From Globomyces pollinis-pini (Eukaryota > Chytridiomycota > Chytridiomycetes > Rhizophydiales > Globomycetaceae): a stretch of DNA of 15,187 bases. Shown piece by piece: positions 1 through 15,187 of this stretch. Both the position numbers and the translations under genes were made by a program. The stretch lies in assembly GCA_025399215.1 (NCBI GenBank), contig MU621467.1:1-15187 (forward strand), written 5' to 3'. The notes below the pieces were generated by a model. The model saw only the letters and a list, made by a program, of their open reading frames with translations. It did no database searches and had not been told where the DNA came from. The first letter of the stretch is position 1. The number at the start of each line of letters is the position of its first letter.

Positions 1-40
1 TTATATTACCGGTTGGATAGGATGATGCATCTGCATATAA

Positions 41-125
41 GCGTGACGGAAAATTTATACCATCTGGCTCCTATTTGATATTTTAAATTGGTGGACAATC
101 TATAATTAAGTTAATTATAAGTTAA
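41..125 (+). repeat. Direct repeat, copy 1 (about 85 bp)
   Basis: Copy 1 starts with GCGTGACGGAAAATTTA and continues through CATCTGGC to a well conserved block, ATTGGTGGACAATCTATAAT, at about 87-106. Similarity then fades over the next 20 bases. The partner copy lies 770 bp downstream in the same orientation. The pair could be the ends of a decayed mobile element or a dispersed repeat; no coding remnant lies between the copies. Confidence 0.7.
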
Positions 126-810
126 CATGGTAGGATCTATTCAGATAATTCTTTACATAGCAAAATACAACAAGGGGATTTGGAACTACCTGGTGATATT
201 CAGCTAAAACAACATGATTAGAGAAGACTATAGTGTTTTGATTTAGTATTTGATTTGAATTGATAGTAGATACCAGCGTAGTTTAAGTTCTGTTAATACG
301 TCAAGTTTATATGTATTGTTGATTCTATTTAGTTGGTAGAACATGATAGATAAGGAATATACAACAGCGTCAATTATTGATTGAATTAGACGGGAAAGTT
401 GCATTCGTGATGAAGAAAATGTGTTATTGGTACTACGACAAATTGGAATAGTATGGTAAGAATCTTAACGTACTGATTTTGAAATGTATTCAACATCATC
501 AATATCGAGTTTGGTCAGTACTAATTCCGACATGGTGACTGGTTACAAGGTAATTAGTAATGCGTAAAGTTAGTGCTAGGGGCCTGATCCAGTAACACCA
601 ACACTATTTTAAAGATAGAAGATATTATGTTATTTCGAGTAAATGAACTTAGTGCGTTTTGCTATCTCTGGAATTGGTATACTTTGTTATACTTATATGT
701 ATAGGCAACCTAAAATGTGAATATTCACTAACAAAATTGGTTATTCGATTTGAATAGTTGGGTATTATGATGTATCTAAAGCATATCCGAGTGAACTAGC
801 AGCTCAAAAA

Positions 811-902
811 GCGTGACGGAAAATTTACATCATCTGGCCTCTTCCTTTTTGATATTTCACATTGGTGGACAATCTATAATTTAGTCAAGTATAAAATGAT
901 AG
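811..902 (+). repeat. Direct repeat, copy 2 (about 90 bp)
   Basis: This is the second copy of the repeat at 41-125. It opens with the same GCGTGACGGAAAATTTA and shares the ATTGGTGGACAATCTATAAT block (861-880). It carries a few extra bases in the pyrimidine-rich middle. The outer right edge is imprecise because similarity decays gradually. Confidence 0.7.
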
Positions 903-1358
903 ATACTAGTGTTACTTATTGAATGACTTAAATGCGGATGTAGCAATCTCGGATTGATTTAATTAGTAAGATGAACGGATATTTCTCAAATCAGTGTATT
1001 AATGTTACACATCCTCTTGTTTGATTCGCACGTCAGTCTTTAGGCGAATATAAATTTCCTGAAAGACACCGCACCAATATCCCCAAATATAATACTTTAT
1101 CATTAAAATAGTCGAAGAGATTCTATGAAATTACTATACAGATTGTATCACTGTATAGTTTAAACACCATGAACCCTCTCTATTGAAACTATAATAATCT
1201 ACACGATATTCTGTAATCTAACCCAGCATTTACTCCATCACTTTATCATAAACTGAGGTGATTTGTCCACCCTTTCCTTTAAACTTTTACGTGTTATTCG
1301 TTTCATTTGAATTAAAATCGGCGTTCATGTGACTGAATTTTATCCACTTTTCACAAAC

Positions 1359-2155
1359 ATGCAAGAGAGAGAACGAAGCACATATTCTTACACTTACAAC
1401 AGAAAATCAAATTCACCCATACGAACCAAGGATTTAAAAGAAGATTTTGTGGATAAGGGAGAGAACGAGGGTGAAGATGATTCAAAGGAGGGATTATTTG
1501 AATGTAATATTTGCTTAGACATGGTACATTCTTTTAAATTTCCTGATTAATAAGGCATCTAATCCAGTTGTTACTTTATGTGGACATTTATATTGCTGGC
1601 CTGTAAGTTTTTGTTTTATCTAAACCTTCAAGTGGTATGTTTGTTACAATTTACCTAATTCCTTAAAATAGTTTAAATCAGTGGTTGAAATCCAAACTTC
1701 CAACTTCCAATGCTTGTCCTGTTTGTGTATGGATTCTTGTTTCTTAACTTTAGAAATCAGGAGTGAAGAAAGAATCAGTAATTCCAATCTACGTTCGAGG
1801 AAGAGATAATAAAGATCCAAGGTTCTTAATTATAGTTAATAAATGTTTAGGAAAGAACCTGAAGAGGCAAGGCCAAGTGGACAACACAACGAAGTACCAC
1901 CCCTTAACAACAGGCGATTTGGACTATTCCCTGGAACTTGGGATAACAATGGTGGCGGATTCTCATTGAACGTTGGTTTTTTTCCATTCTTTCCAATGGC
2001 AGGCATTCATATTGTAATATTGTGTTAATTTCATTGATTTTTAGGGTGGTGGAAATATGGGCCAATTAAACTCAACCGAAGAAGTTCAAGCATTCATGTC
2101 CAGGGTGTTGCTAATGTTTGCCACTCTGATACTTGTCACTATAATTTTATATTAA
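1359..2155 (+). CDS. RNF5: RING-type E3 ubiquitin ligase, RNF5/RMA1 type, ER-membrane anchored
   Basis: Exons are 1359-1523, 1555-1602, 1633-1634, 1672-1726, 1754-1821, 1851-2013 and 2045-2155, giving 203 aa. The protein has an acidic N-terminus, then a C3HC4 RING finger with ligands C49, C52, C64, H66, C69, C72, C87 and C90. The typical family motifs CGHLYCWP, CPVC and VIPIYVRG follow. A Gly/Phe/Pro-rich linker leads to a C-terminal membrane segment at about 188-203. RNF5/RMA1 ligases sit in the ER membrane and ubiquitinate misfolded proteins for ERAD; this role is inferred from family. Introns are 31, 30, 37, 27, 29 and 31 nt. C72 exists only if the 2-nt exon TG at 1633-1634 is used. The first in-frame ATG after an upstream stop (1308) is 1359. 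The gene converges on Nse4. Confidence 0.9.
1633..1634 (+). other. 2-nt microexon (TG) in the RING gene
   Basis: The bases between CWP (ending 1602) and LNQW (from 1673) split into two canonical introns, 1603-1632 (GTAAGT...AAG, 30 nt) and 1635-1671 (GTATGT...TAG, 37 nt), around the dinucleotide TG. TG plus T1672 gives TGT, the zinc-ligand cysteine expected between P and L. Each half has its own branch-like motif (CTAAAC and CTAAT). Removing 1603-1671 as one intron shifts the frame and loses the rest of the RING. Using only the first intron reaches a stop. Confidence 0.8.
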
Positions 2156-2161
2156 ACTGTC

Positions 2162-2167
2162 AATAAA
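2162..2167 (+). terminator. AATAAA polyadenylation signal of the RING gene
   Basis: A canonical AATAAA hexamer lies 6 bases after the stop codon (2153-2155), in the 111-bp gap between two convergent genes. Confidence 0.5.
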
Positions 2168-2266
2168 TAACCAAAATGTCATTATTCAATTACATTTTTC
2201 TAGCGAAGTTGAGCATTATATTAAAAAATATTGTGTGTTTCAAACAGAATGTGTATAATGATTGCC

Positions 2267-3397
2267 TTAAAGTACGATGGTAGTGTCGCGATGTGGAATT
2301 ATCGATTCAGTAATAGAATATAGTTCAATGGCCTTCTAATAAAATAGTTTAAACATAAGGAAACTCTTACTCGCCAAATATCCATATCTAATTGCAAAAT
2401 ATTTTGAAGTTTGGAAAAGTCTTCCTCCTGTTGTTCTTCTAAAGTAGGTGGTTCACAAGTTTCTAAAATTGTTAATATGAAACAAACGTGAAGTACCTGT
2501 ATATAAGTATTAAAGTGATATAATTTACCTAATACAAGTTCACCTGATTCTTCGCTTTCCTCAATTGAGACTTTTGCATCACGAACCAAAAACGATAAAT
2601 GAAACAGATTTTCAACCGTTTGTCCAAAGGATAAAGGATTAACAATAAATTTGAAAAAGTTGATTGGTTCGACTTGAGTCAGTCTATGGTATACCCGCTG
2701 AACGTTCAATGACGTCTCGTTGGAATCCCGATCAATGTCTTTATCAGTCAGCTATAATAAAACTAAAACATAAAAAATACTTGGTCAGGACGTTTTAATT
2801 CAAGTTTGTCTTTGTTTAATCTTAATCCAGTCTTTCTAGCTGCTCTTACTTTCGGTTCAACTCCTAGTGGACCAAACCTATTGTAACCAATCAGTATTTA
2901 TATAACTTTTACATAAAACTAACAGCTGGTACTTGAGAGCAACATCCTTTAACTAAAGATGTTAGTCCATTCCAATTTGATTCGTCCTCTGAAATCTTAT
3001 TCATCAACTTTGCAATATACTCATCGATATCAAACCCAACCCCTCCTAGCTTCATTTTTTGAGCTTTTTGAGCTGCAATATCTATTGTTTTCAAGATAAA
3101 GGTTGAATCCAACACAGCTTCTTGAGTGGTCTTCACTAACTTTGTCAAGACACTTCAATCAAACCCTTATCAAACAATTCATTTCCTTTCTGTAATCTCT
3201 CCAGTAATTTCGATGGATCACCATTCAATAATTGTTGTTTTTCTCCTAGAAACTGTTGGAAAGTTAAAAATCAAACCTTCGATATTAGTCGTCAATTCCC
3301 TATAGCAAGCTCTCAAACGTCGCTTTTCATCCAAAGTCTGCCGGTCTCCATTTGCTCTTTTCTTTCCTTTATTCTCCATTTCTTGAGATCCAATCAT
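2267..3397 (-). CDS. NSE4: Nse4, kleisin subunit of the SMC5-SMC6 complex
   Basis: Exons in transcription order are 3397-3277, 3245-3165, 3135-2913, 2877-2781, 2751-2529, 2462-2371 and 2335-2267, giving 301 aa. The N-terminal part has the family's LRACYREL start and KTTQEAVLDS...KLGGVGFDIDEYIAKL (from about residue 69). The C-terminal Nse4 domain has INFFKFIVNP (204-213), LSFLVRD (226-232) and the terminal ITESIIPHR (287-295). Nse4 bridges the Smc5 and Smc6 heads with Nse1/Nse3 in DNA repair; that is family knowledge. Introns are 31, 29, 35, 29, 32+34 and 35 nt; the 66-nt gap at 2463-2528 is two abutting introns. The start could instead be in-frame ATGs at 3379 or at 3460, which overlaps the previous gene's stop. 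Length is typical of the family or slightly short. Confidence 0.9.
2463..2528 (-). other. Two abutting introns with no exon between (AG|GT junction) in NSE4
   Basis: On the minus strand 2528-2497 is a 32-nt GT...CAG unit and 2496-2463 a 34-nt GT...TAG unit, joined directly as CAG|GTACTT. Each has a branch-like motif (TTAAT and TTAAC) and a normal length for this locus. Removing only one gives a premature stop. Removing both restores SGELVL-E-TCEPPTLEE. Retaining all 66 nt is also open, adding 22 residues. Confidence 0.7.
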
Positions 3398-3449
3398 AAA
3401 GTCTTTGATAGAAATCGGACAAAAACAAAATTGAATGAAATGCAATATA

Positions 3450-5879
3450 TTAAACTTCATAATCTCCGGTTGAATTGACCCAATCTTTAAATTCAGACTG
3501 GATTGAATGAAAACTGCCGGTCAGCATTTGCTGTCCCGGATTTTCAATAATCCAACTATCATTCAGTGTCAAACCAGTCACAGAAAACCCATCAATAGCT
3601 GCTATTGGACGATCTCCTGCTAATACCAATTCCACCAACTCGCTAAAAATTATTGGATCGAGCCACACTGATTCTATTTCAAACTCTTCATGCTGCAAAG
3701 GGCCATAAAATCGTTGATTAGAATAATGTTGGTTAAAATTGTCAAGATACTGTCCAATTCTGGCCATTGGCCAATTTGGGCCTCTTGGGATTTTTAATGT
3801 GAAATAGTTCGCCATTGAGTATTGCTCTTGTTCTTCAATTCGGTCCAGATCAATAATTTCTTGTTGACCTTTGTATTCTTCATGATAAGAATCGACAGTA
3901 TCCAAATCACTTTCATTTTCATCTTCTTCATCAGAACTTTCAGACAGATAACCTCTGGAAGACACTCTACACTGTTCCTCACCCCAATATTGCCTTTTAT
4001 TGAACCCGACAAACATTCCACGCTCTAGAGCCATCAAGCGACGGAGACCCGTAGCCTCTGAAAACCAAACTTCTTTAAATCGAATATTTTTCCTAGAAAC
4101 ACCAGGTACAAGCACACCAAATCCTCGCTTCGAATACTTGTACAAACGGTATTCATAACTAGGGGACCGACGGGTTATATCAATTACATTATATCCAGTA
4201 ATAACCGATCTAACAAATCTGGGTAATCCATAAACGTCCTTCCCGTCATAACCAACACTACAACTGTCTATATCAAATCCAATCAATATTTCTGCAGGTG
4301 ATTTATACAATCTTAATATAACTTGTAGCTGACGATGTGGATGTGGCCGGATAATTGTAATTGTATGTCGAGACCTAACAAACAGGACTTCGTCAGAAGT
4401 TTGTAAGAGAAGCTCTTCGCAAAACTGTGCTACCCTTGCAGTAGCAGCGACAGGATCTGTTATACCATACACGAAGATATCAATATCCGAGTTATAAAAG
4501 CCACTATTGGTAAACTGCTCTTCTAAATCTTTGGAACTGTCAAAGGGTTGTAATGCAGCTAAAACAGCCCCACCAGCAAAGAATAAGTTGTCCAAGCAAA
4601 TGTTTTGGAAAATACCACCAGTAAAGTGATTCCATTGAATTTTAAATTGTTCCTGTCCACATATGGTTTTTTGATTGAACTCCAATTTAGGTTTGAAAAA
4701 GTACATGTTATTTTCAAGATCCGGTTGAAGTGGATCTGCCAGATAATCAGAAATTGAAATATGAATCTTTTCCAAAAGTAGATAAGGATTATCAAGTATT
4801 GGGGACGATCTATTTTCCACAAATAATTCACGATAGCTATTTTCTAAATAAGTGTAATACTGATCAACTGTCACACCATCTTTCCAATCAGGGATACCAT
4901 TATTTTCCACCAACACTTTGAATGGTCTATATCGTATTTGGGGTAGAAAGTCAGGTAGTCGACTCTCTAATAAAGATCCCAACAGTTCAACATTGTCCAA
5001 TGGATATTCATTCAGTGCTTGGATGATTTTTGCATTTGAAAGGCTTGCAAGTGATGGAATACCTGGTAATTCATTCTCGCTTTCGACAAACATATGATAG
5101 GCATCTAATGCAGTTGGCCTTTCCAATGGTTCCACATATGTCATCTTTGACAGCAATTCCGATAGTTTTGTCAATTGATCTGGAGATCCTTTTACTAGTC
5201 CATAAGAGAGTACATCTTGGAGCATTCGACCTGCAGCATACACATCCACAGCTAAACATTAATCTTCTAAAGGCTTACCCGCAGTTAAATCATCACCATC
5301 ATTACAGACCTCTGGAGCTCTATAAACTGAAGAAATCAATCCATTCTTGATTTTTCCATGTTCATCCATTTTTACAGCATACTGGAAATCAATTAAATGA
5401 GAGCACCGATATTTGATGCAAACGTTACCACCATGAATGTTCATATGAATGTATCCTCTTTCATGCATTCTGCACAAATTCAGCATTAAAGTGGTAAACA
5501 AAATCTTAAATTCAACCCAAGTGAAGCACATCTTATTGGTGATCATATCTCGTATTGAATCTCCAACATCTGAAATTATAAATCCAGCAAAGTCTAATGC
5601 CGGTTCCTCACCAAATTCAAAACAATCTTCGGTATTTAAAAAAGGAGTACAATCCAGTATTTGAGTTATTTCCATCTCTGGTATGTCTGATGTCGGAATT
5701 ATCTTCATATATTGGATACTGACTGTGTCATAATCAGGTTCTTCATCAGGTTCATCACACATGAACTGAAGCTTGAAGACAAACCTCGTTCTTTTATCTG
5801 ATATACAAGTGATGGATTCAAGTCCTACGAAATATCTTTCAATTGTAGAAAGAAATATTTCTTTCAAGTTACCAGACAT
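3450..5879 (-). CDS. Pseudokinase fused to a nucleotidyltransferase-like domain
   Basis: Exons are 5879-5279 and 5251-3450, with one 27-nt intron, giving 800 aa. Residues 1 to about 255 follow the protein-kinase fold: a VSIQYMK-like beta-3 strand (K59), HMNIHGGN in place of HRDLKPxN (catalytic Asp to Asn147), DFQ in place of DFG, YRAPE (186-190), and DVYAAG plus ERPTALDA of the C-lobe. The glycine-rich loop is degenerate. Loss of the catalytic Asp suggests a pseudokinase. After a linker, FFAGGAVLAAL (GG 427-428) and SDIDIFVYG (D456, D458) form a Pol-beta-type nucleotidyltransferase signature. GFDIDSC (D527, D529) may give a third acidic position, and PSYEYRLYKY follows. An acidic stretch lies near 638-652. 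The C-terminal 150 residues are unrecognised. No signal peptide or membrane segment is seen. Substrate and role are unknown. A 9-codon upstream ORF lies in the leader. Confidence 0.85.
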
Positions 5880-5892
5880 TGAATGAATTTGG

Positions 5893-5922
5893 TCAAGTTT
5901 TTTTTGAATATGCAAAAATCAT
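5893..5922 (-). other. Short upstream ORF in the leader of the pseudokinase gene
   Basis: An ATG at 5922-5920 opens 9 codons followed by TGA, out of frame with the main start at 5879 and ending 13 bases before it. If the transcript begins upstream of 5922 it would be met first by scanning ribosomes. Whether it is transcribed cannot be seen. Confidence 0.3.
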
Positions 5923-5949
5923 GGCAACTATCAGAAAACGATTTTTTTA

Positions 5950-8402
5950 TTATAACATAGCTTGAAATCCGTAAATATATTCACGAAGCTTATAGTAATC
6001 TTCGTGTACTTTACCTTCAACGGTGATGTTACCTTCAGGGTTTTTTTTAATTACAAATGAATTATTCACCACCAAAATACCACCAGCTGCAAATTGAGCA
6101 TTATAGCCTGCCGAAGTCAAGTGTCTTTTCAATTCTGAAAGCTTGATATCTCCAATGGATACTGGTGTTCTTGATTTTTGTTGTGCAGATGAAATAGGAT
6201 CTAAAAAGAGTCGAGTTCCATTTGGTGTTTCTTCGGTCCGAATCTGACCAGTTATGTAACTCAAACTATAGTCATTCAACTATCGGTCAGCAAAAAGATT
6301 CGATTACATGAGAGAGTCGAAGAGAAGAAAATAGAGCATCGGTAAGTACGACCTGATACAGATTTCCGGCAGCAGATACGTCCACGCATTCATATAGGGA
6401 AGGTGTGAATATTTCTAAAGTCTTGTTGGCATCTTGAATTGATTGCGCTAAAAAGTCGGTTGATTCAGCAGATCCATGAACAATCATCTAACATTACAAC
6501 AAAAAATCCTTACCAATTTTTTTGGTGCTACTTGCTGAAAAATATTTCTCATGGACGGACCTGAGAAATTAATACACTTTAACAATACCATCTGATCGGC
6601 CTTCAAAATCTATAAATTGGACTAAACATCGAAGTTGAAGTAAATGGTCTCGTGAGATATACTTTGAAGGAATAACTGGAGCTTTAGACACCTCTACGTT
6701 ATTGAAAATCGGTAATTCGATATCCTAAATTGTAAGCTTTACAAAAATTTAGAACCATAAATTCCTCAATAGCTTTGGTTTGTTCAAACTTTGAAAACAT
6801 GGTAATATCTACAACTTCTCCGTAATCATCTTGAACATGACGACTTTCGTAAACTGGATACATTCGATATACTTGAGACTGTTTGAAGAATCCTTTCCTA
6901 TTGCCTTGATCCTTTACATATATATCATATGAATGTCCCACAGCACCAGATTCCTCTATTTCTTCATCTGAATCTGTTTCTTCTATATCACTGGTGACCA
7001 TTCGCTCAACTTGTTTTTCAGCTTCTTTCTGCTTCAAACTTTCTTCCTCCAAAAAAGCGTTTAGTTCTTCACCCTCCAAAGGAACTCTTTTATGCAGCTA
7101 ACAGGTAAATAATATCCAATCAAAAATACTTTTAATGGAATGTCCAATTGCAATTGAACTGTCGGATTGCTCCCATCCGAGAGTTTTTTCCATTGCTGGT
7201 ATATTTGATTTCCCAGGGATGGTACTGGTGGTTTTTCGGGAAATATTAAACAATTTCCAGCTCCAGATGCCCATTCCAACAGTAAATCTTGAGAAAACCC
7301 AAAATCCAAAGCGGGAAAAGATGCCAAAACAATCTTACTTCCCATCAATTCATTAACTTCATCCATACTCTTCAGACATTTAAGATATTTGAATTCGAAC
7401 GGTAAGTCTTTGGCTGCAAACGCTTGTGCCACTGATATTAATTGAACGATGCGTACCTCCATCACCCATCCATTCTAACATACTCTTCGCACTGTTTATG
7501 GTAGCTTGTGATTGATTTGATAGAAATACTAAATGTGCAAGATTCTTTGTTTGTGCCCAATGAGTATCTAATATATATGCCAATTCTAATACACGGGTAC
7601 TAGTTTCAATGGGTATCAAAACATTAGCATTCTTGTTTAACCGATCCGTTATCAAATCTAGAGTTATTTCATATAAATGAGAGTACTAATTAATGTTTCA
7701 TCACGAACTTTTCTGGTCAACGAATCAGCAACTTGTGAGTTTAAGGCATCCGTTATTAACAATGAAGGTCTGAGTAATGTGTCAGTACCAAGCAATACTG
7801 TTCCATTTAAATGTTTTTCTTTTCGATGATTTAAATCGACTGCATATACAATATGTTCTGTGTCTTTCTTGATATTCCAAACAGTTCCTCCAATGGTATG
7901 CCCGGCACCAAACGCAGTAATAATTATACCACCGCATTTCCCTGTTACTTTAGTATCAACATATACTACCAGTTAGTCGAAACGGTTGAGAATATCGTAA
8001 TAGAGTTATTTTTTTAAACGCAATTTCTACATCATCCAAAGTTACATCTTCATATTCAACTTGATCTAATTTTGATTTTACAATATCTCTCATCAATTGT
8101 AAACCCATATCATGACAAGGAGTGGTTGCAAAACAAGGACAATCTAAACCAAATTTTGCAACAGCATTTGCAAATCCCCCAATATGATTAATATCTGCAT
8201 GAGAAAACAATACAGCATCGATTGAAGGAGCAATTCTGTGAATTAGATAAAGATGAAATTACTTTTGTAATGCAACTAAAGACTCACCTTCCAAATACCC
8301 ACAATCTAATAAAATCTTTGATTCATCAATTTCCAATAGATAACATAATGGATTCTCATCTTTTGATCCAGATAATGGAGTGAATTTAACAAACGATGTC
8401 AT
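5950..8402 (-). CDS. CPSF2: CPSF2/Cft2 (CPSF-100), cleavage and polyadenylation factor subunit
   Basis: Ten exons: 8402-8263, 8235-7970, 7941-7687, 7657-7457, 7431-7130, 7097-6756, 6724-6589, 6560-6514, 6487-6308 and 6279-5950, giving 732 aa (human CPSF2 is 782). The N-terminus [12 protein letters not shown] and LLDCG are typical. The metallo-beta-lactamase metal motif is degenerate: [10 protein letters not shown] (58-67) replaces HxHxDH, as expected for the inactive partner of CPSF73. Then come [11 protein letters not shown], the beta-CASP region with [16 protein letters not shown], the acidic [11 protein letters not shown] segment, [31 protein letters not shown], and the C-terminal KLSELKRHL...[12 protein letters not shown]. 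It acts in the nucleus in pre-mRNA 3'-end processing; this is family knowledge. Nine introns are 27, 28, 29, 25, 32, 31, 28, 26 and 28 nt. The start lies 64 bp after the DM9 gene. Confidence 0.95.
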
Positions 8403-8466
8403 TCTCTCAATAGAATTTAAAAATGAAAAAACTTGGACTTTTAAATGAGAAGGTTTTTTATTTTGC

Positions 8467-9148
8467 TTAAAGCTCGTTGGAATAAACGAGAACTTGATAG
8501 TCAGGGATGTACTTTTCCTTTTCACCAAACGAGAGATAGCAACCATCAGTATGAGATCCAACTTTACCTATTCATCTGTAAACGATACTCATAATTACCA
8601 ATATGGATACCATGTTCATAATGAGTACGTGCAATGTACAATGATTTACCATCATCAGTTCCTCCTCCAATTAGATCATGTCCTTGATATTGTCCATTCG
8701 AAACTGCCAATTTACCTAAACTTGAAACCCATTCCACAGCACTAGGGCTTCCAACTAGAATCTCATAGTTGGGTACAATATTGGCTTTCGTTCCCCAAGG
8801 AATTTCTGCTCCTTTAATGAGTAAACTGGTTTTGCCAACATGAAGTCCATTCTATGATATCAAATTGATTATTTAAAAAGTTACTTCAAAGTAAGCACGA
8901 GCAGCATAGAGTGGTAGACCATTCTTCTCATTTCCCAATTGAATAGCATTAGCAGGAATAGTATTATCAGTGACTAGAATCCAAGCTACAGCAGGAACTG
9001 GTTGTTTTTGACGAACTAAATTATGATATTCATCTGTTCTCTTTTTTGCATCAGTTTCCCATTCAGCTACAGAATTGAAGGTTAAGATTGGAGTATTCTT
9101 TAGTTGAATTTCGTATTTAACACCCTTGATTTCAATTGATTTGGCCAT
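8467..9148 (-). CDS. DM9-repeat (DUF3421) lectin-like protein, short paralogue
   Basis: Exons are 9148-8885, 8851-8599 and 8567-8467, giving 205 aa. The ATG opening MAKSIEIKG is the first in frame; no signal peptide is seen. Two DM9-type repeats are visible. The first has [18 protein letters not shown] and ends in [13 protein letters not shown]. The second has [16 protein letters not shown], then [10 protein letters not shown] and YQVLVY. DM9 proteins in invertebrates include mannose-binding lectins and immune or secretory factors; the role here is unknown. Introns (33 and 31 nt) sit at exactly the same positions and phases as the last two of the neighbouring gene, so the two arose by tandem duplication. 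Unlike that neighbour it lacks the chitin-binding N-terminus. Confidence 0.88.
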
Positions 9149-9344
9149 TTGTTTTAATTGGGTTTTTGTTGTAAAACTACAAAATGTCGAAGCCTTCTTC
9201 CCTTGGGTCACAACAATGAGATTCTATCGCGCCCAAAAAACCTCAAAAGAAACGAAATATTCGTATTGAAATGCTACATTAATATAAGAAAATGCATATT
9301 TATATTGGAAAGTACTATAGTATCTGGTCTAGTAAAAAATTATA

Positions 9345-10310
9345 TCATGATCGATAAACCAAATATTGATAATTAGGAATGTAATGCTCTTTATCACCAT
9401 AAGCTATAAAACATCCATCACAATCTGGTCCAGTTTTGCCTTAAATAGTTACATTATCAATCACTTACCAACATGAATACCACCTTTAAAGTGTGTTCGT
9501 CCAACGTAAAGTGGAAACTTATCATTATTACCACCATCAACCAAGAAATTATTGTTGTGCACTTGAACAGGTGCTTTTAGAAACCCTTGACCATCAATCC
9601 ATTTCACTGCACTTGGGTTTCCAACTAAAATCTCATATTCATAGATTGTATGAGCTTTTTGTCCCCATGGTAATTCCATACCCCTTTCCATCGTCGGACT
9701 TACCTTTCCAACATGCAAGCCATTCTGATACGTTAATGTAAAATTTCGATACCTTAAAATATGCTCTGGCAGCATACAAAGGAATTCCTTCATGTTCATT
9801 ACCTAACGGTATCGCATTAGATGGTATACAATTGCTCTGGGTTAAAATCCAGTACACGGGTGGTAATGGTTCCTTACGATCTTGAAGAGAATGGTAATAT
9901 GTACGTCTTTTTACAGCAGCTTTCATCCATTCAGAAGTGTTAAATGGTAAAGTCATTGGAACTTTGTAATTGGTGAGATATAAATAGCCATCTATCAATA
10001 CCGTGGATGGTTTTACTGGTTTAACTTGTTTAGTTTCCAATTTTACTGTATTTGGGATGGATTCTGTCCCAATTTTTGATTCTACATTAAAATCATTGGT
10101 AGCAGTTTCTTCTAATTTCCATATGTTGGGAGATTGATCTGGCGTCCAATTTACTGTCAAATCAATTCGAATTCAAATATACTTTGAGAGGTATGAGGCT
10201 ATTGAATATGAATTAGAAAAGTTATTTGATACTATTAAAAGGGAATATTTTCTGTTGTTGAATTCCACTGTTGCTCCTTCCTGATACGCAATTCCCTCCT
10301 GCCAAAGCAT
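9345..10310 (-). CDS. CBM5/12 chitin-binding module joined to DM9 repeats
   Basis: Exons are 10310-10233, 10198-10183 (16 nt), 10153-9753, 9724-9469 and 9439-9345, giving 281 aa. Residues 3-43 match a CBM5/12 module: W3, Y9, V15, F17, Y22, the signature PHTSQ (27-31) and WTPDxxPxxW (34-43). A linker rich in K, P and V leads to the DM9 region, with [49 protein letters not shown] and YIPNYQYLVY. CBM5/12 binds chitin and DM9 proteins can bind mannose, so a cell-wall or host-surface glycan role is plausible but inferred. Introns are 34, 29, 28 and 29 nt. The ATG at 10310 gives MLWQEG with no signal peptide. A further upstream exon encoding one cannot be excluded. Confidence 0.85.
10183..10198 (-). 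other. 16-nt exon inside the CBM5/12 module
   Basis: This exon lies between a 34-nt intron (10232-10199) and a 29-nt intron (10182-10154). Together with the next two bases it encodes PHTSQI, the most conserved stretch of CBM5/12 modules. Skipping it would shift the frame. Confidence 0.8.
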
Positions 10311-10555
10311 GAATATGGTACCTCAGTTAGAAAAAATGTAGTGTGACATGAACCTTGACATACAACTGTTGGTATTCATTAAATATATAATTTCGTATGG
10401 TTTTACTTGCTGTATCTGATGTTATAAAATGACTATGGATAGTGATAGTGCCAGAGTTTAACCTGGATCATCTGGTTCCACTTCTCCTTACTTGGATTAT
10501 AGATAAATTACAACAGCTGTCAATAAAAAGAAACCCATAATTGAATAAGAAAAGA

Positions 10556-10561
10556 TTTATT
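10556..10561 (-). terminator. AATAAA polyadenylation signal of ALYREF
   Basis: The minus strand reads AATAAA six bases after the ALYREF stop codon (10570-10568), which is close but within the usual range for compact fungal genes. Confidence 0.45.
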
Positions 10562-10567
10562 ATTTGG

Positions 10568-11282
10568 TTAAGCCATAGCATCTGCCAACGCATTAGTATC
10601 ATTTCCCTAAAATTGATCAAAAAAGGTTAGGAAATTTATACAGTTCCACTCATATAAGCATCCATATCTGCATCCAAATCAGTGGCAGTCAATTCCTTCT
10701 TTGGTTCTCGTTTTGGTCGGCCTGATCGTCCACCACCCCGTCTATAATCAACACTAAAAAAAACCATACCCTTTCTTTTGAATACCACCGGATCGTGCTG
10801 TCGAGTTCAATTTACGAATCTGTGGAACATCAGGGTTAATGATGAGTTCAATTTTCATAGGGCGGTTGTCCAAAGGACGATTATGATATTCAGTGTATGC
10901 TTTATGAGCGTCACCCAACTTTGAAAATATCACAGTTGCAACCCCTTTTGATTTCCCATCTTGGTTGTAATTGAGCTGAGCACTACGTACAGGGCCTATA
11001 AAGATCAGCGAAATCAACAAGCCATACCAATCCTGGCAAACAATTCTCTTACATCAGATTGAGAGACGGACGGGGCTAGATTGGACACAACCAGTTTATC
11101 TGTAGCACTAGCAATAGCAGGTTTTGGTTTATCATTTCCTTGAGGTTTTCTATTTCTGTTTCCTTTTTTCTGGGTTTTCTTTTGCGCAATCTGATATGAT
11201 GTTAAATATTCATTTTGATGAGATTTGATTTTGTACGTACGATTTCATCTAAAGCCATATCCATTGCATCAGTCTTTGACAT
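10568..11282 (-). CDS. ALYREF: ALYREF/Yra1 mRNA export adaptor (THO complex subunit 4)
   Basis: Exons are 11282-11241, 11190-11028, 10995-10770, 10741-10642 and 10606-10568, giving 189 aa. The N-terminus carries the UAP56-binding motif MDMALDEII. A basic Lys/Arg/Asn-rich segment precedes one RRM (about 45-125) with RNP2 LVVSNL and RNP1-like KSKGVATVIF, joined by the loop LFARIGPVRSAQLNY. An RGGGRSGRPKR box follows, then the C-terminal UAP56-binding motif DLDADMDAYM. This is the full REF architecture at near-normal size. The protein recruits UAP56/Sub2 and the export receptor to spliced mRNA in the nucleus; this is family knowledge. Introns are 50, 32, 28 and 35 nt; the first is the longest I find in the window. 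The next gene upstream is divergent, 1.4 kb away. Confidence 0.95.
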
Positions 11283-11967
11283 TTCAAAAATAAATTGAGA
11301 AAAAATGATCAAAAAACTTCAAGGGTATGCGCCACTTGTAAACAAACTTTCAAGCATTACGTTTTGTATTCCATTTAGTATTTTATATACTTTGTAGCTA
11401 TGAAAATAAACTATGAAATACTATCTAGTGTGAATAGCTGTAATTTATCTCATATATATCAATGGCAAACAGTCTGTACACTACACTTGTGTGTTAATAA
11501 AATTGAGTAGTGGGGCATTTCATGTGAAATCCGACTTTATAAGCATCTAATTTCATGCGAAGAACACGTTCATTGTTGAACTAGGTTTGGTTGTTGATTA
11601 TGATTGAGTACTGGTTCTGATGCTCTGCTGATGTGAGTTTTTGACGAAACAAGTCAACCAAGTAAGGAATTTGCAAAGCATAATTAGGTTTTGCGATATT
11701 ATTTGATGAGAGTAGTGAGCAAAAGGATTGATTTTTTACTAATGTAGACGTAAAAACAACGAAAGACCAGGACGATATTCAGCAATCGATGGGAAGGAAG
11801 TACAACTCGCCAGAATATAATTCTTTGGGCATTTGTAAATAACCTTGAAAATGTCAATGAGGTGATTAGATATATGCTCTAAATTGCTATTGGTGGATTC
11901 CATAAAATATTCCGATTATCGAGGAAGAACATTCATTCCGAAAGTGTCACTACGAATGATGCCATGA

Positions 11968-11995
11968 CAATTCAGTAAATAACAGAACTGAATTG
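11968..11995. repeat. 9-bp inverted repeat with 10-nt loop
   Basis: CAATTCAGT at 11968-11976 and ACTGAATTG at 11987-11995 are exact reverse complements. The arm sequence recurs in the repeat patch just downstream, so the hairpin may be a by-product of local repeat spread. Confidence 0.6.
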
Positions 11996-12003
11996 CCAGG
12001 ATC

Positions 12004-12067
12004 AATTCATCACTGACTTGACAGATTGAATTCATCACTGAATTCATCACTGAATTGACAGATTGAA
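12004..12067 (+). repeat. Short direct repeat patch
   Basis: AATTCATCACTGACTTGACA at 12004-12023 recurs at 12041 as AATTCATCACTGAATTGACA, and both are followed by GATTGAA. A half unit, GAATTCATCACT (12028-12039), lies between them. The unit length is 37 bp. No reading frame is maintained. Confidence 0.7.
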
Positions 12068-12703
12068 TTCGTCAACGTTGTTGAATTACTTTCGGATAAT
12101 ATTCCCAATATACATTTGATTACCAAGCAGTACTGCCAAACTACCTATTTAAAATGTGATTTTGGCCAACATTTATGTAGTATGGCTTCTCAACATCTAA
12201 TTCGGCATTTTGCCCATATGTGGAAACGGACTTTGGACACCGCGCTGTAGATGAACTGAGTGATAAATGAAAAAATCACATGCGATATGGTAGATTGTAT
12301 ATGATAGAATTGGAACTACCAGATGGTGTATGATGATACTGTCATTCATTCAATGATGTGGAAAATGACTATTTTTCCTATAAGTTGATATTCAATCACA
12401 TTGCTTTCTTTCAACTCCACATCCACAATATAAAGCGGTCTGTCTGATATGAGGTCAATAGACGAATTAGTCATTATGAATCCAAAAGTTGGAAAAAACA
12501 CGATTCCAAAGTAATACCATTTGATCATTAAAATTTGGATTGCTTTCTTTTTTTCAGGGAAGCCTGGATTGTACTCTTTTTCACCAATATTAAAAATTGT
12601 ATATTAAAATTTCTCTCATCGGTTAAACCGGTAAAATTCCAAATCACCGTTTACAAAAAAACAGCCTTTTTCTCAACACTTCCAAACACTACAAGATCAT
12701 CTC

Positions 12704-13370
12704 ATGAGCGATAAGCAATTTATAGTGAAATTAAGACAGCAGCCTGATCGGGCTCGTATGTGTGGTATTAAACCAAAGGTCAATCGGAGAACGATGTAAT
12801 TTGGCCTTAAATTAATCATCAGTGACCCGCCTTTAATTATCGAACTAATACCGGCTTACAATTTGATAAACTCGTATTAAATCTATTACTTAATCTTTTA
12901 GAAATCTGTTCGTTTGTAATCTGTCATTGTGTAATTTAGGTATTTACGCATATACTGATTAGGATTAGATAAAGATGATGCAACTTATTTCACGCATCCT
13001 GATGGGTTTATGAATAAAAACATTGTGGGGGAAACGACCGTTCCCCCCGTATTACTGTTTGATCCAGTCGATGGATTAAAGAAATGGTTCTTTATATTCC
13101 ATAACATCTCCATAAGACTGACAGGTGAATATCTTTTCAATTGTCAAATTGTGAATATTCAAAGGTACGGATTACAGATGGAACCTGATGATAGCGGCTT
13201 TGTCCAAAATCTCTATACCCTTCCATTTACTGTGTACAATAACCAAAATTTCCCAGGAAAGCAAAGTATGTTACAATATTTATTAATAGTTTTTAGATGC
13301 GACTATTCTATCCGTGTCGTTTTACAATCAAGGCGTTCCGATTCGTCAGAAACCAATCCGCCAGCAGTAA
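12704..13370 (+). CDS. Velvet-domain regulator, domain-only
   Basis: Exons are 12704-12795, 12823-12873, 12902-12939, 12969-13265 and 13297-13370, giving 183 aa. The protein is little more than a velvet domain: FIVKLRQQPDRARMCG (6-21), NRRTIDPPLIIELI, SNLFVCNLSL, VLLFDPVDG, WFFIFHNISIRLTGEY, LPFTVYNNQNFPG and the terminal NQGVPIRQK. Velvet proteins are fungal transcription factors that form dimers, bind DNA and control development and secondary metabolism; this is family knowledge. Introns are 27, 28, 29 and 31 nt. Two points are uncertain. The third intron can end at 12962 or 12968 (GATTAG repeated), adding two residues. 13165-13194 is a possible in-frame 30-nt intron whose removal would bring loop length closer to typical velvets. 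The last exon is read in a different frame from the one open across the final intron. Confidence 0.88.
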
Positions 13371-13394
13371 AACATAAATTCCATGTTTACGAAT

Positions 13395-13400
13395 AATAAA
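13395..13400 (+). terminator. AATAAA polyadenylation signal of velvet
   Basis: AATAAA lies 25 bases after the velvet stop codon (13368-13370). This supports that stop and the 31-nt last intron. Confidence 0.5.
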
Positions 13401-13691
13401 AATATTGTTGTATACTGTAGCTAGTCGTGATTGTTTTCCAATTTTCGAATCTTCGGCCGTACGATTGCGGTCACTCAACGATTATTTTATACGTGCGTAT
13501 CATTAAATTATTCATTGGACGTATCTGCGGACATGATACTTATTGCCGCAGTCATTCCTATTCTGCCAACCAAGCGATCTATACTGGATCAAGTAAATTC
13601 GTGATACCTCAATGTGACGTCAATGGTCACAAAACACACAAACAACTGAATTACCAGATTTGGCTGGTCACCAACCCCCAATTTTAATATT

Positions 13692-13715
13692 CATGAAAAG
13701 CAATTTTTTTTCATG
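13692..13715. repeat. 8-bp inverted repeat with 8-nt loop
   Basis: CATGAAAA at 13692-13699 pairs perfectly with TTTTCATG at 13708-13715. It could form a small hairpin or be chance in A/T-rich sequence. Confidence 0.5.
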
Positions 13716-13882
13716 TGGAAATGGCTATGTATCATTGACTATTTTAACGATGATCTAATTGTGTTATGAATTATTAGATTAACCAGACATGTTAGCCTAA
13801 ATACCATCATCTTCTTTGGAGATGGAAAAAACCCATCAAATTGATTGGAGATGAAAGTTATACTAAAAAACTTACTGCTTTT

Positions 13883-13963
13883 GATATGACTACAACAAAA
13901 GACATCATGTACGAATGGAACTAGATATGACTAAACAAAAGGCATCATGTACGAATAGAACTA
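13883..13963 (+). repeat. Two-copy tandem repeat, 41/40 bp
   Basis: Copy 1 (13883-13923) and copy 2 (13924-13963) both begin GATATGACTA and share CATCATGTACGAAT and GAACTA. They differ by one base deletion and two substitutions. No open frame spans them. Confidence 0.85.
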
Positions 13964-14187
13964 GACTCCATATGTTTACTGTAAAGAACTGAAAAGAACA
14001 TCTTGGCAAGATTCAAGTTCTGAGATGAACCAATGATACCCATTCAGGTATTAATCCAACAATACCTTTGGTAGTCAATGACTATGAAAAGGAAAACTTT
14101 TAAAACTTTATTTTTTATGAACACAATTTTACAAAATTGGAAGAATGTGCCTCCAACAGAAAATAAAGAAATAAAGAATTGTGGGAT

Positions 14188-14193
14188 TATAAA
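14188..14193 (+). promoter_or_regulatory. TATAAA box upstream of the DPBB gene
   Basis: TATAAA begins 50 bases before the ATG at 14238. This is a plausible core-promoter position for a short leader, though such strings are common in AT-rich DNA. Confidence 0.4.
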
Positions 14194-14237
14194 TTCTAGG
14201 ATTTTCCGATAGTTCTTGTTACAAATTCAATCCTATT

Positions 14238-14669
14238 ATGCTGTTTCTAAACTTGATCTTAATGACTTTCACCATTGCTGCTCCCTTAGAGAAAAGGGGC
14301 ATGTCAGGAAAAGCTTCATATTATGGCCCTCCTAATGATGCTGGTCCTTTTGGAATTGGAGCATGTGGAAACAATCCTGTAGATCATAACTACTTTGTCT
14401 CTGTCGGTGCTAGTGTGTTTGATAGAAGCCAATGCAACCAATGTGTTCAAGTCAATTATAATGGTCGATCAAGTATTGGTCCTGTTGCAGATCGTTGCGT
14501 GGGTTGTGGGTCTGGTGTTGATATTAGTTTGACGATGATGAATGAACTGACAGATGGACAAGCTTCCAATTTAGGTGTTGTGAATGTCGATTGGGATTTT
14601 GTTCCTTGTCCAAGTCATCGAGCTGCTTTTGTTGCTGCATCCCCACACAATGTCGTCGGTTCAGCTTGA
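14238..14669 (+). CDS. Secreted double-psi beta-barrel (RlpA/expansin-like, loosenin-like) protein
   Basis: A single exon gives 143 aa. Residues 1-15 (MLFLNLILMTFTIAA) form a signal peptide, followed by PLEKR ending at residue 20, a Kex2-type processing site. The mature part opens GKASYYGP, then GACGNNP, VGASVFD, CNQCV, VADRCVGC (83-90) and VDISLTMMNEL. D95 lies at the position of the conserved Asp of the DPBB fold. Six cysteines (43, 66, 69, 87, 90, 124) suggest three disulfides. Fungal loosenin-like DPBB proteins of this size loosen or bind cell-wall polysaccharide; function here is inferred. A TATA box and an AATAAA flank it. It is the only complete gene here without an intron. Confidence 0.92.
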   Translation: MLFLNLILMTFTIAAPLEKRGMSGKASYYGPPNDAGPFGIGACGNNPVDHNYFVSVGASVFDRSQCNQCVQVNYNGRSSIGPVADRCVGCGSGVDISLTMMNELTDGQASNLGVVNVDWDFVPCPSHRAAFVAASPHNVVGSA

Positions 14670-15027
14670 TTCTCTGTTGGTCTCTCATGAATTGGTTATT
14701 TATTTATATATAGAATGTAGTTATTTTGTTTCAAATAAAACAGCTTCTTATAACAATTCATCTGTTTAGACCTTAAGTGATGTGCCAGCGATTCGTAGAA
14801 TCCCAGTTGAACATTTAAAATGGTCAGATACAGTTCACTTTTCCTTGCATTTGTTTAAGTAAATGCAGTCGCTCTAATTAGGTCAATAGTTAACGGAATT
14901 AACGGCCAATGCTTTATATTCGCAATCTCCTTTATCCAAGCAGCGTGGGTTGTGAAACTGCTTTGATTTTGGAGGTGAAATCTGTGTCCATATAAATCAG
15001 ACAATAATTCCACAGATCCCAATCCCA
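14670..15027. other. Intergenic region between the DPBB and hydrolase genes
   Basis: It holds the DPBB 3' end with its AATAAA and presumably the hydrolase promoter. I see no further gene. A 66-codon minus-strand frame at 15055-14855 overlaps the hydrolase start and looks like chance. Confidence 0.5.
14734..14739 (+). terminator. AATAAA polyadenylation signal of the DPBB gene
   Basis: AATAAA lies 65 bases after the stop codon at 14669. Confidence 0.5.
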
Positions 15028-15187
15028 ATGATCTTTCATATTCTGGCATTCTCAAATTTGGTTAGTGGGATTGTTACTGGTGAAGTCAGCACTCTGAAAT
15101 GGACTCAATGTGGTGATGAGAAAAATCCAACGCTAGAATGCTCCTCTTTACTGGTGCCTTTGGACTATGCAAATCCATCTTCAAAAC
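15028..15187 (+). CDS. Secreted TAP-like alpha/beta hydrolase (peptidase S33 type), N-terminal fragment
   Basis: The window ends after 53 codons. Residues 1 to about 18 (MIFHILAFSNLVSGIVTG) look like a signal peptide. They are followed by LKWTQC (23-28) and then C38 with SSLLVPLDYANPSSK. The pattern W-x2-C, a second Cys, then VPLDY-x-NP is the usual start of the mature part in secreted tripeptidyl-aminopeptidase-like alpha/beta hydrolases. The catalytic Ser, Asp and His lie beyond the edge, so activity cannot be judged. The start codon is the first ATG giving a signal peptide. No intron is seen in the visible part. Confidence 0.75.
   Translation, partial: MIFHILAFSNLVSGIVTGEVSTLKWTQCGDEKNPTLECSSLLVPLDYANPSSK

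Follow-up and report, generated by a model that had tools for sequence, protein, structure and literature searches.

An RNF5/RMA1-type gene and its putative two-nucleotide exon

The stretch of DNA analysed here, referred to as the window, comprises 15,187 nucleotides (nt) of the chytrid Globomyces pollinis-pini (Rhizophydiales, Globomycetaceae; assembly GCA_025399215.1, contig MU621467.1, positions 1 to 15,187 of the forward strand) and carries on its plus strand a gene whose product is an RNF5/RMA1-type RING protein, a predicted ubiquitin ligase, with a gene for Nse4 on the opposite strand beyond it (Table 1). The codons for CWP and LNQWL in the RING finger of the RNF5 gene are separated by 69 nt, which very probably represent two distinct spliceosomal introns, 30 and 37 nt in length, on either side of a real exon of only 2 nt, TG, that restores a zinc-binding cysteine of the RING finger. 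Our claims concerning splicing are based throughout on genomic DNA, sequence models and predicted proteins.

The assignment of the product to the RNF5/RMA1 class follows from alignment and from the Pfam zf-C3HC4 match (40.0 bits, with a cut-off of 21), which together reveal a C3HC4 RING finger with the C-G-H-L-x-C-W-x-C motif. The RING finger is accompanied by a hydrophobic C-terminus, FMSRVLLMFATLILVTIILY, that aligns with those of chytrid homologues and, as judged by its sequence, is a predicted membrane anchor. The top two homologues are themselves from chytrids, i.e. Batrachochytrium (49% identity) and Spizellomyces (40% identity). A DNA search located the gene at one place in the genome, and a protein search of the genome returned, beyond the gene itself, only weak matches (E 2.9e-5 or worse). 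The gene seems to be unannotated in G. pollinis-pini, because the two lists of homologues, of 103 and 14 entries, contain no Globomyces RNF5 protein, whereas a deposited protein exists for the neighbouring Nse4 (P0112); this pattern fits the proposal, made in a first-pass annotation of the window, that gene predictors miss exons of this type. Upstream of the gene there is a direct repeat (window 39-120 and 809-894) composed of two blocks, one 93% identical over 30 nt and the other 88% identical over 52 nt.

Splicing was modelled using a semi-Markov gene model that combines coding statistics with donor, branch, acceptor and length terms, without homology, and that was trained on a 215 kilobase (kb) sample consisting of the window and the initial 100 kb of each of contigs C1 and C2. 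The output for the 215 kb was 63 genes with 533 introns, the latter having a median length of 28 nt (5-95% range, 24-35 nt) and a consensus of GTAWNT at the donor, YTAAY at the branch and mostly TAG at the acceptor; 512 of the 533 are no longer than 38 nt and none has a length of 65-97 nt. A single intron of 69 nt would thus be unusual in this genome. When the model was permitted introns of up to 160 nt, 23 of 526 intervening sequences were single introns longer than 40 nt, compared with 1 of 514 under a 60-nt ceiling; at least one of the 23, a 61-nt intron modelled in the window, swallows open coding sequence, and genuine long introns may be present among the others. With respect to the splicing machinery, a U2 RNA was found in the genome, the branch-pairing motif of which could not be placed, and a search for U1 RNA gave no match, but nor did it in the control genomes.

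The first-pass annotation had divided the 69 nt into GT-AG introns of 30 and 37 nt around TG, and both the sequence and its splicing bear this out: intron 2 spans GTAAGT...TTCAAG and intron 3 spans GTATGT...AAATAG, after which the exon continues T-TTA-AAT-CAG-TGG. On spliced translation TG plus the next T gives Cys72, as had been proposed, in the context LCGHLYCWP-C72-LNQWLKSK. A branch-like motif is indeed present in both halves, and their lengths fit those of local introns (median 28 nt), with intron 3 at the edge of the range. The gene model, when run on the window, returned the RNF5 gene with the TG exon, despite the absence of the gene from its training set (the final set contains no genes from the plus strand of the window, the RNF5 gene scoring 8.3 relative to a cut-off of 12). 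The gene model alone is no proof, since the same model proposed a TG exon elsewhere that homology rejects; it is the conserved cysteine that decides the RNF5 case. Of 111 predicted homologues, 109 have this residue; P0006 is without LYCWPC, and P0100 terminates shortly after CWP.

A brute-force search over the region, with any boundary dinucleotides allowed, gave no single intron producing CWPCLNQWLKS. The earlier claim that no single intron gives the residue therefore stands, whereas the accompanying claim that none keeps the frame does not: there are 195 frame-keeping single gaps with any boundary, all without the motif, only one of which (1599-1671) has GT/GC-AG ends. Among 13 frame-keeping double-intron readings, the motif is intact only in that with the TG exon, the expected message for which is CCT-TG-TTTAAATC. 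Chance occurrence was assessed by filling the 69 nt at random with intron-like sequence, the ends being fixed, 200,000 times; approximately 167 of the fillings permit a TG exon, and in 6 of the 200,000 both resulting introns score at least as well as those observed.

Table 1. Predicted features of the RNF5/RMA1-type and Nse4 genes, in window coordinates
Feature	Position	Strand	Details and basis
RNF5/RMA1-type RING E3 ligase gene	1359..2155	+	From ATG to end of stop codon; 7 exons including the 2-nt one, 203 amino acids (aa); spliced translation, ab initio model, homologues, Pfam RING
Intron 1, 31 nt	1524..1554	+	Splicing, ab initio model
Intron 2, 30 nt, phase 0	1603..1632	+	Donor GTAAGT, branch-like TCTAAAC, weak acceptor CAAG
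Putative microexon TG, 2 nt	1633..1634	+	Bases 1-2 of the Cys72 codon
Intron 3, 37 nt, phase 2	1635..1671	+	Donor GTATGT, branch-like CCTAATT, acceptor ATAG
Intron 4, 27 nt	1727..1753	+	Splicing, ab initio model
Intron 5, 29 nt	1822..1850	+	Splicing, ab initio model
Intron 6, 31 nt	2014..2044	+	Ab initio model
Nse4 gene	2267..3397	-	Ends by eye from deposited protein P0112; Pfam Nse4_C
Nse4 pair, first unit, 32 nt	2497..2528	-	Gene model; zero-nt exon follows
Nse4 pair, second unit, 34 nt	2463..2496	-	Gene model

Competing readings of the 69 nucleotides and the gene in relatives

Several observations weigh against two introns flanking a TG exon. Relative to the 533 modelled introns, intron 2 has its acceptor (CAAG|T) at the 0.9th percentile, its summed score at the 5.6th percentile and a middling donor; intron 3 is near the long end of the length range, its score being at the 58th percentile. 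A 2-nt TG exon was also modelled in a xanthine-dehydrogenase-like gene (minus strand of G000 C1, at an offset of ~5600 within the first 100 kb), where it was rejected, the Fer2 match being 35.1 bits with the exon versus 43.7 bits without it. The predicted proteins of relatives, for which the comparison extends to protein letters only, give no sign of a shared TG microexon. Thus, CWPC is intact in Boothiomyces macroporosus (P0104); in Terramyces (P0092) CWPC is read and the gene is then lost; and the sequence in P0100 is CWP-W-Y, as would result if CWP-TG were followed directly by an unspliced intron beginning GTA....

The alternatives fare less well. Were the 69 nt to be removed as one intron with TG skipped, CCT would be joined straight to TTTAAATCAG and a truncated protein would result, as expected for a pseudogene or for an isoform that switches the gene off. 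The outer pairing has GT...AG ends plus a donor, branch and acceptor, the summed score of which is at the 12.8th percentile; however, 69 nt is outside the intron length mode and the score falls to the 1.1th percentile once length is counted. The TG-skipped product would meet a stop after 18 codons (retention of either intron also leads to a stop) and its RING match is reduced to 27.3 bits, whereas the remainder of the RNF5 gene is open and conserved; we consider this reading very unlikely. It is highly improbable that the assembly or sequencing is in error, with two bases missing beside a splice site of a real single intron, as not only would a single intron of ~69 nt be unusual here, but the error would need to create the appearance of an AG-TG-GT junction flanked by two introns of a size typical of this genome. 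The GC-AG intron at 1599-1671, which would also remove W70-P71, does preserve the frame and a cysteine, but its product has CC in place of C-X2-C, with a RING match of 29.5 rather than 40.0 bits, and its donor is GCCTGT; this reading, which is incompatible with a message carrying TGGCCTTG, is barely credible.

The possibility that the microexon is shared with sister genera was first suggested by Boothiomyces sp. JEL0866 (P0006), by virtue of its lacking LYCWPC, and by the run-off of the Terramyces protein after CWPC. This idea was dropped, because P0104 is intact and the Terramyces tail matches, by eye, a downstream gene that is fused in P0104. The predicted proteins instead suggest that relatives have a phase-2 intron straight after CWP-TG, corresponding to RNF5 intron 3, and intron 2 may therefore be the added one. 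Introns 2 and 3 are 76% alike, which is within the range for unrelated units.

Predicted head-to-tail introns with zero-nucleotide exons

The gene model indicates that exons even shorter than TG recur in this genome. Of 478 internal exons in the training set, 15 have a length of zero and none has a length of 1-3 nt; with each spacing permitted in turn, 16 intron pairs were obtained at zero nt, and 1, 0, 0, 1, 3, 1, 0, 0, 2, 0, 1 and 1 at spacings of 1-12 nt, respectively. The 16 pairs in 215 kb are thus modelled as complete introns that abut at AG|GT, i.e. the arrangement of zero-nt recursive splicing. The first-pass annotation had conjectured that tiny introns would let near-zero exons persist, and the recurrence of zero-nt exons between abutting introns strengthens this proposal. 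The arrays, of which there are 10 in the 215-kb sample, consist of 2-5 units there and of up to nine elsewhere in the genome; one of the sampled 10 (C1 24679-24746) also allows a reading that includes a 5-nt exon.

One such pair is in the Nse4 gene of the window, for which a 273-aa query is 100% identical to the deposited G. pollinis-pini protein P0112; the 66 nt of the pair (2463-2528) are wholly missing from the deposited protein. A kinase gene has a five-unit, 138-nt array between HDL and GLIHTDLKPEN. The Fumble (pantothenate-kinase-type) gene (L043; G000 C451:3000-4400, minus strand) has nine abutting introns of 23-30 nt, totalling 247 nt, followed at some distance by another six (159 nt); two neighbouring units of this gene are identical. 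The locus L042 (G000 C194:2400-4400, minus strand) has abutting introns numbering seven or eight according to the model run, with some pairs among units 3-6 being 89-100% alike, as if from recent duplication. Of the 19 array genes, 16 had their proteins scanned for domains, the scan being made without C1 24679-24746 and without L042 and L041/L044, which are two of nine genes elsewhere in the genome with arrays of at least three units. For 12 of these 16 proteins (6/9 plus 6/7) an array junction is located within a Pfam match, a count that excludes the MCM array, the junction of which is at a domain edge.

Genome-wide, AG|GTAWNT junctions spaced 23-33 nt apart number 65, compared with 39 for the reversed-pattern control, and those spaced 38-48 nt apart number 9, compared with 26; relative to the reversed-pattern control the excess is thus smaller than 65 versus 9 would imply, and the 65 matches represent 52 separate places, several being within one array. 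Of 12 loci taken from the 65, eight (in six genes) have arrays of at least three units, and four (L031, L037, L038 and L040) have none. A genome-wide pattern that included branch sites did not discriminate, with 146 matches for AG|GT versus 143 for the reversed control and 36 versus 107 for a 2-nt spacer.

The RNF5 introns and the arrays are probably spliced unit by unit. Recognition across the intron together with unit-by-unit removal is the simplest proposal, because a donor, branch and acceptor, spaced as usual, are present in every unit. The spliceosome of G. pollinis-pini would treat the short introns as individual units, by intron definition, and abutting units would be removed one by one in successive reactions. 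In the RNF5 transcript, the intron 2 acceptor and the intron 3 donor could hardly be occupied simultaneously, since they are 2 nt apart; either unit might be removed first, after which the other would have an ordinary flanking exon. The TG exon is informative in this regard, because only two separate excisions would leave TG in the message, whereas zero-nt exons leave no trace in the mRNA. In its widest form, to which we assign roughly even chances, the proposal is that the spliceosome works almost only on units of ~24-38 nt, that intervening sequences can lengthen only in whole units, with concatemers of up to nine being removed singly, and that there is no lower limit on exon length, the TG exon being part of a codon caught between units that exposes stepwise splicing in the protein.

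It is also possible, although we think it rather doubtful, that each zero-nt array constitutes a single long intron that is excised in one step, with the internal AG|GT junctions being relics of tandem duplication. The mRNA would be identical under one-step or stepwise removal, and near-identical neighbouring units, reminiscent of a minisatellite, do occur: those at C194 and C451a are up to 100% alike, and at C31 and C12 the maximum likeness is 87-89%, barely above the 99th percentile between arrays (86%). These four arrays are suggestive of growth by whole-unit duplication. In contrast, for the 10 arrays of the 215 kb, the likeness of units is 0.639 within arrays versus 0.643 between them, and the internal sites score about as strongly as ordinary ones (donors 3.99 versus 3.70, acceptors 3.06 versus 3.31), in a comparison that is biased upward because the sites were picked by the model. 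The lack of extra likeness within arrays, together with the strength of the internal sites, therefore suggests that the internal sites are maintained by use.

A different type of repeated arrangement was seen on the minus strand at G000 C1 ~21710-21965 (L004), where 15-nt exons (ATATGATGATAGAAG-like) alternate with introns of 25-30 nt; this series seems to be a coding minisatellite in which each repeat has its own intron.

Relation to known splicing systems, and other features of the window

Microexons of 1 nt are established for APC11 and VPS55 of plants (PMC4674806, PMC8831610), which, like the proposed RNF5 exon, are cases of a 1-2 nt exon that is essential for the frame and was overlooked by annotation; as with the predicted role of the RNF5 product, APC11 is a ubiquitin-ligase component (PMC4674806, PMC8831610). 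The settings differ in that the APC11 exon lies in a 422-nt stretch once taken as one intron, whereas that of the chytrid RNF5 gene, which is known from genomic sequence, would be a 2-nt exon between introns of 30 and 37 nt. In fungi, a likeness is found in a microexon of Trichoderma Xlr2 that likewise completes a zinc-binding domain and was overlooked by annotation, although it is 20 nt in length and is regulated by glucose (PMC11121469).

Zero-nt exons, or ratchet points, are an established feature of long introns in flies and mammals (PMC5126111) and resemble the Globomyces arrays in their abutting AG|GT, their exon length of zero and the proposed stepwise removal; the Globomyces units are, however, of only ~28 nt and occur in arrays of up to nine. 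Abutting U2 introns removed by recursive splicing are a named type of complex intron in fungi (PMC6616335). The Globomyces arrays are distinct from stwintrons, which are nested, with a splice element of one intron being interrupted by a second intron (PMC6616335, PMC7138796), since the RNF5 pair and the array units are each made up of complete introns that lie side by side, the array units being head to tail. Among the matches listed from the open-licence literature there was no 2-nt exon in a fungus and there were no arrays of abutting ~28-nt introns; the single paper listed in connection with a 2-nt exon concerns HLA-F.

An exon of 2 nt and an array of nine abutting ~28-nt introns probe the minimal exon and the minimal intron that a spliceosome can handle. 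If real, they imply that recursive splicing not only shortens giant introns but also removes quite short intervening sequences in a length-restricted system, and the growth of introns by whole-unit duplication becomes directly testable. On a practical level, genes such as RNF5 can go missing from the gene predictions for such genomes.

Elsewhere in the window there is a short direct repeat (13894-13925 and 13934-13965), the 32-nt copies of which are 94% identical at a spacing of 40. Further along, an open reading frame at 14262-14669 is intronless, unlike its intron-rich neighbours, and may encode a small secreted RlpA/expansin-like protein.
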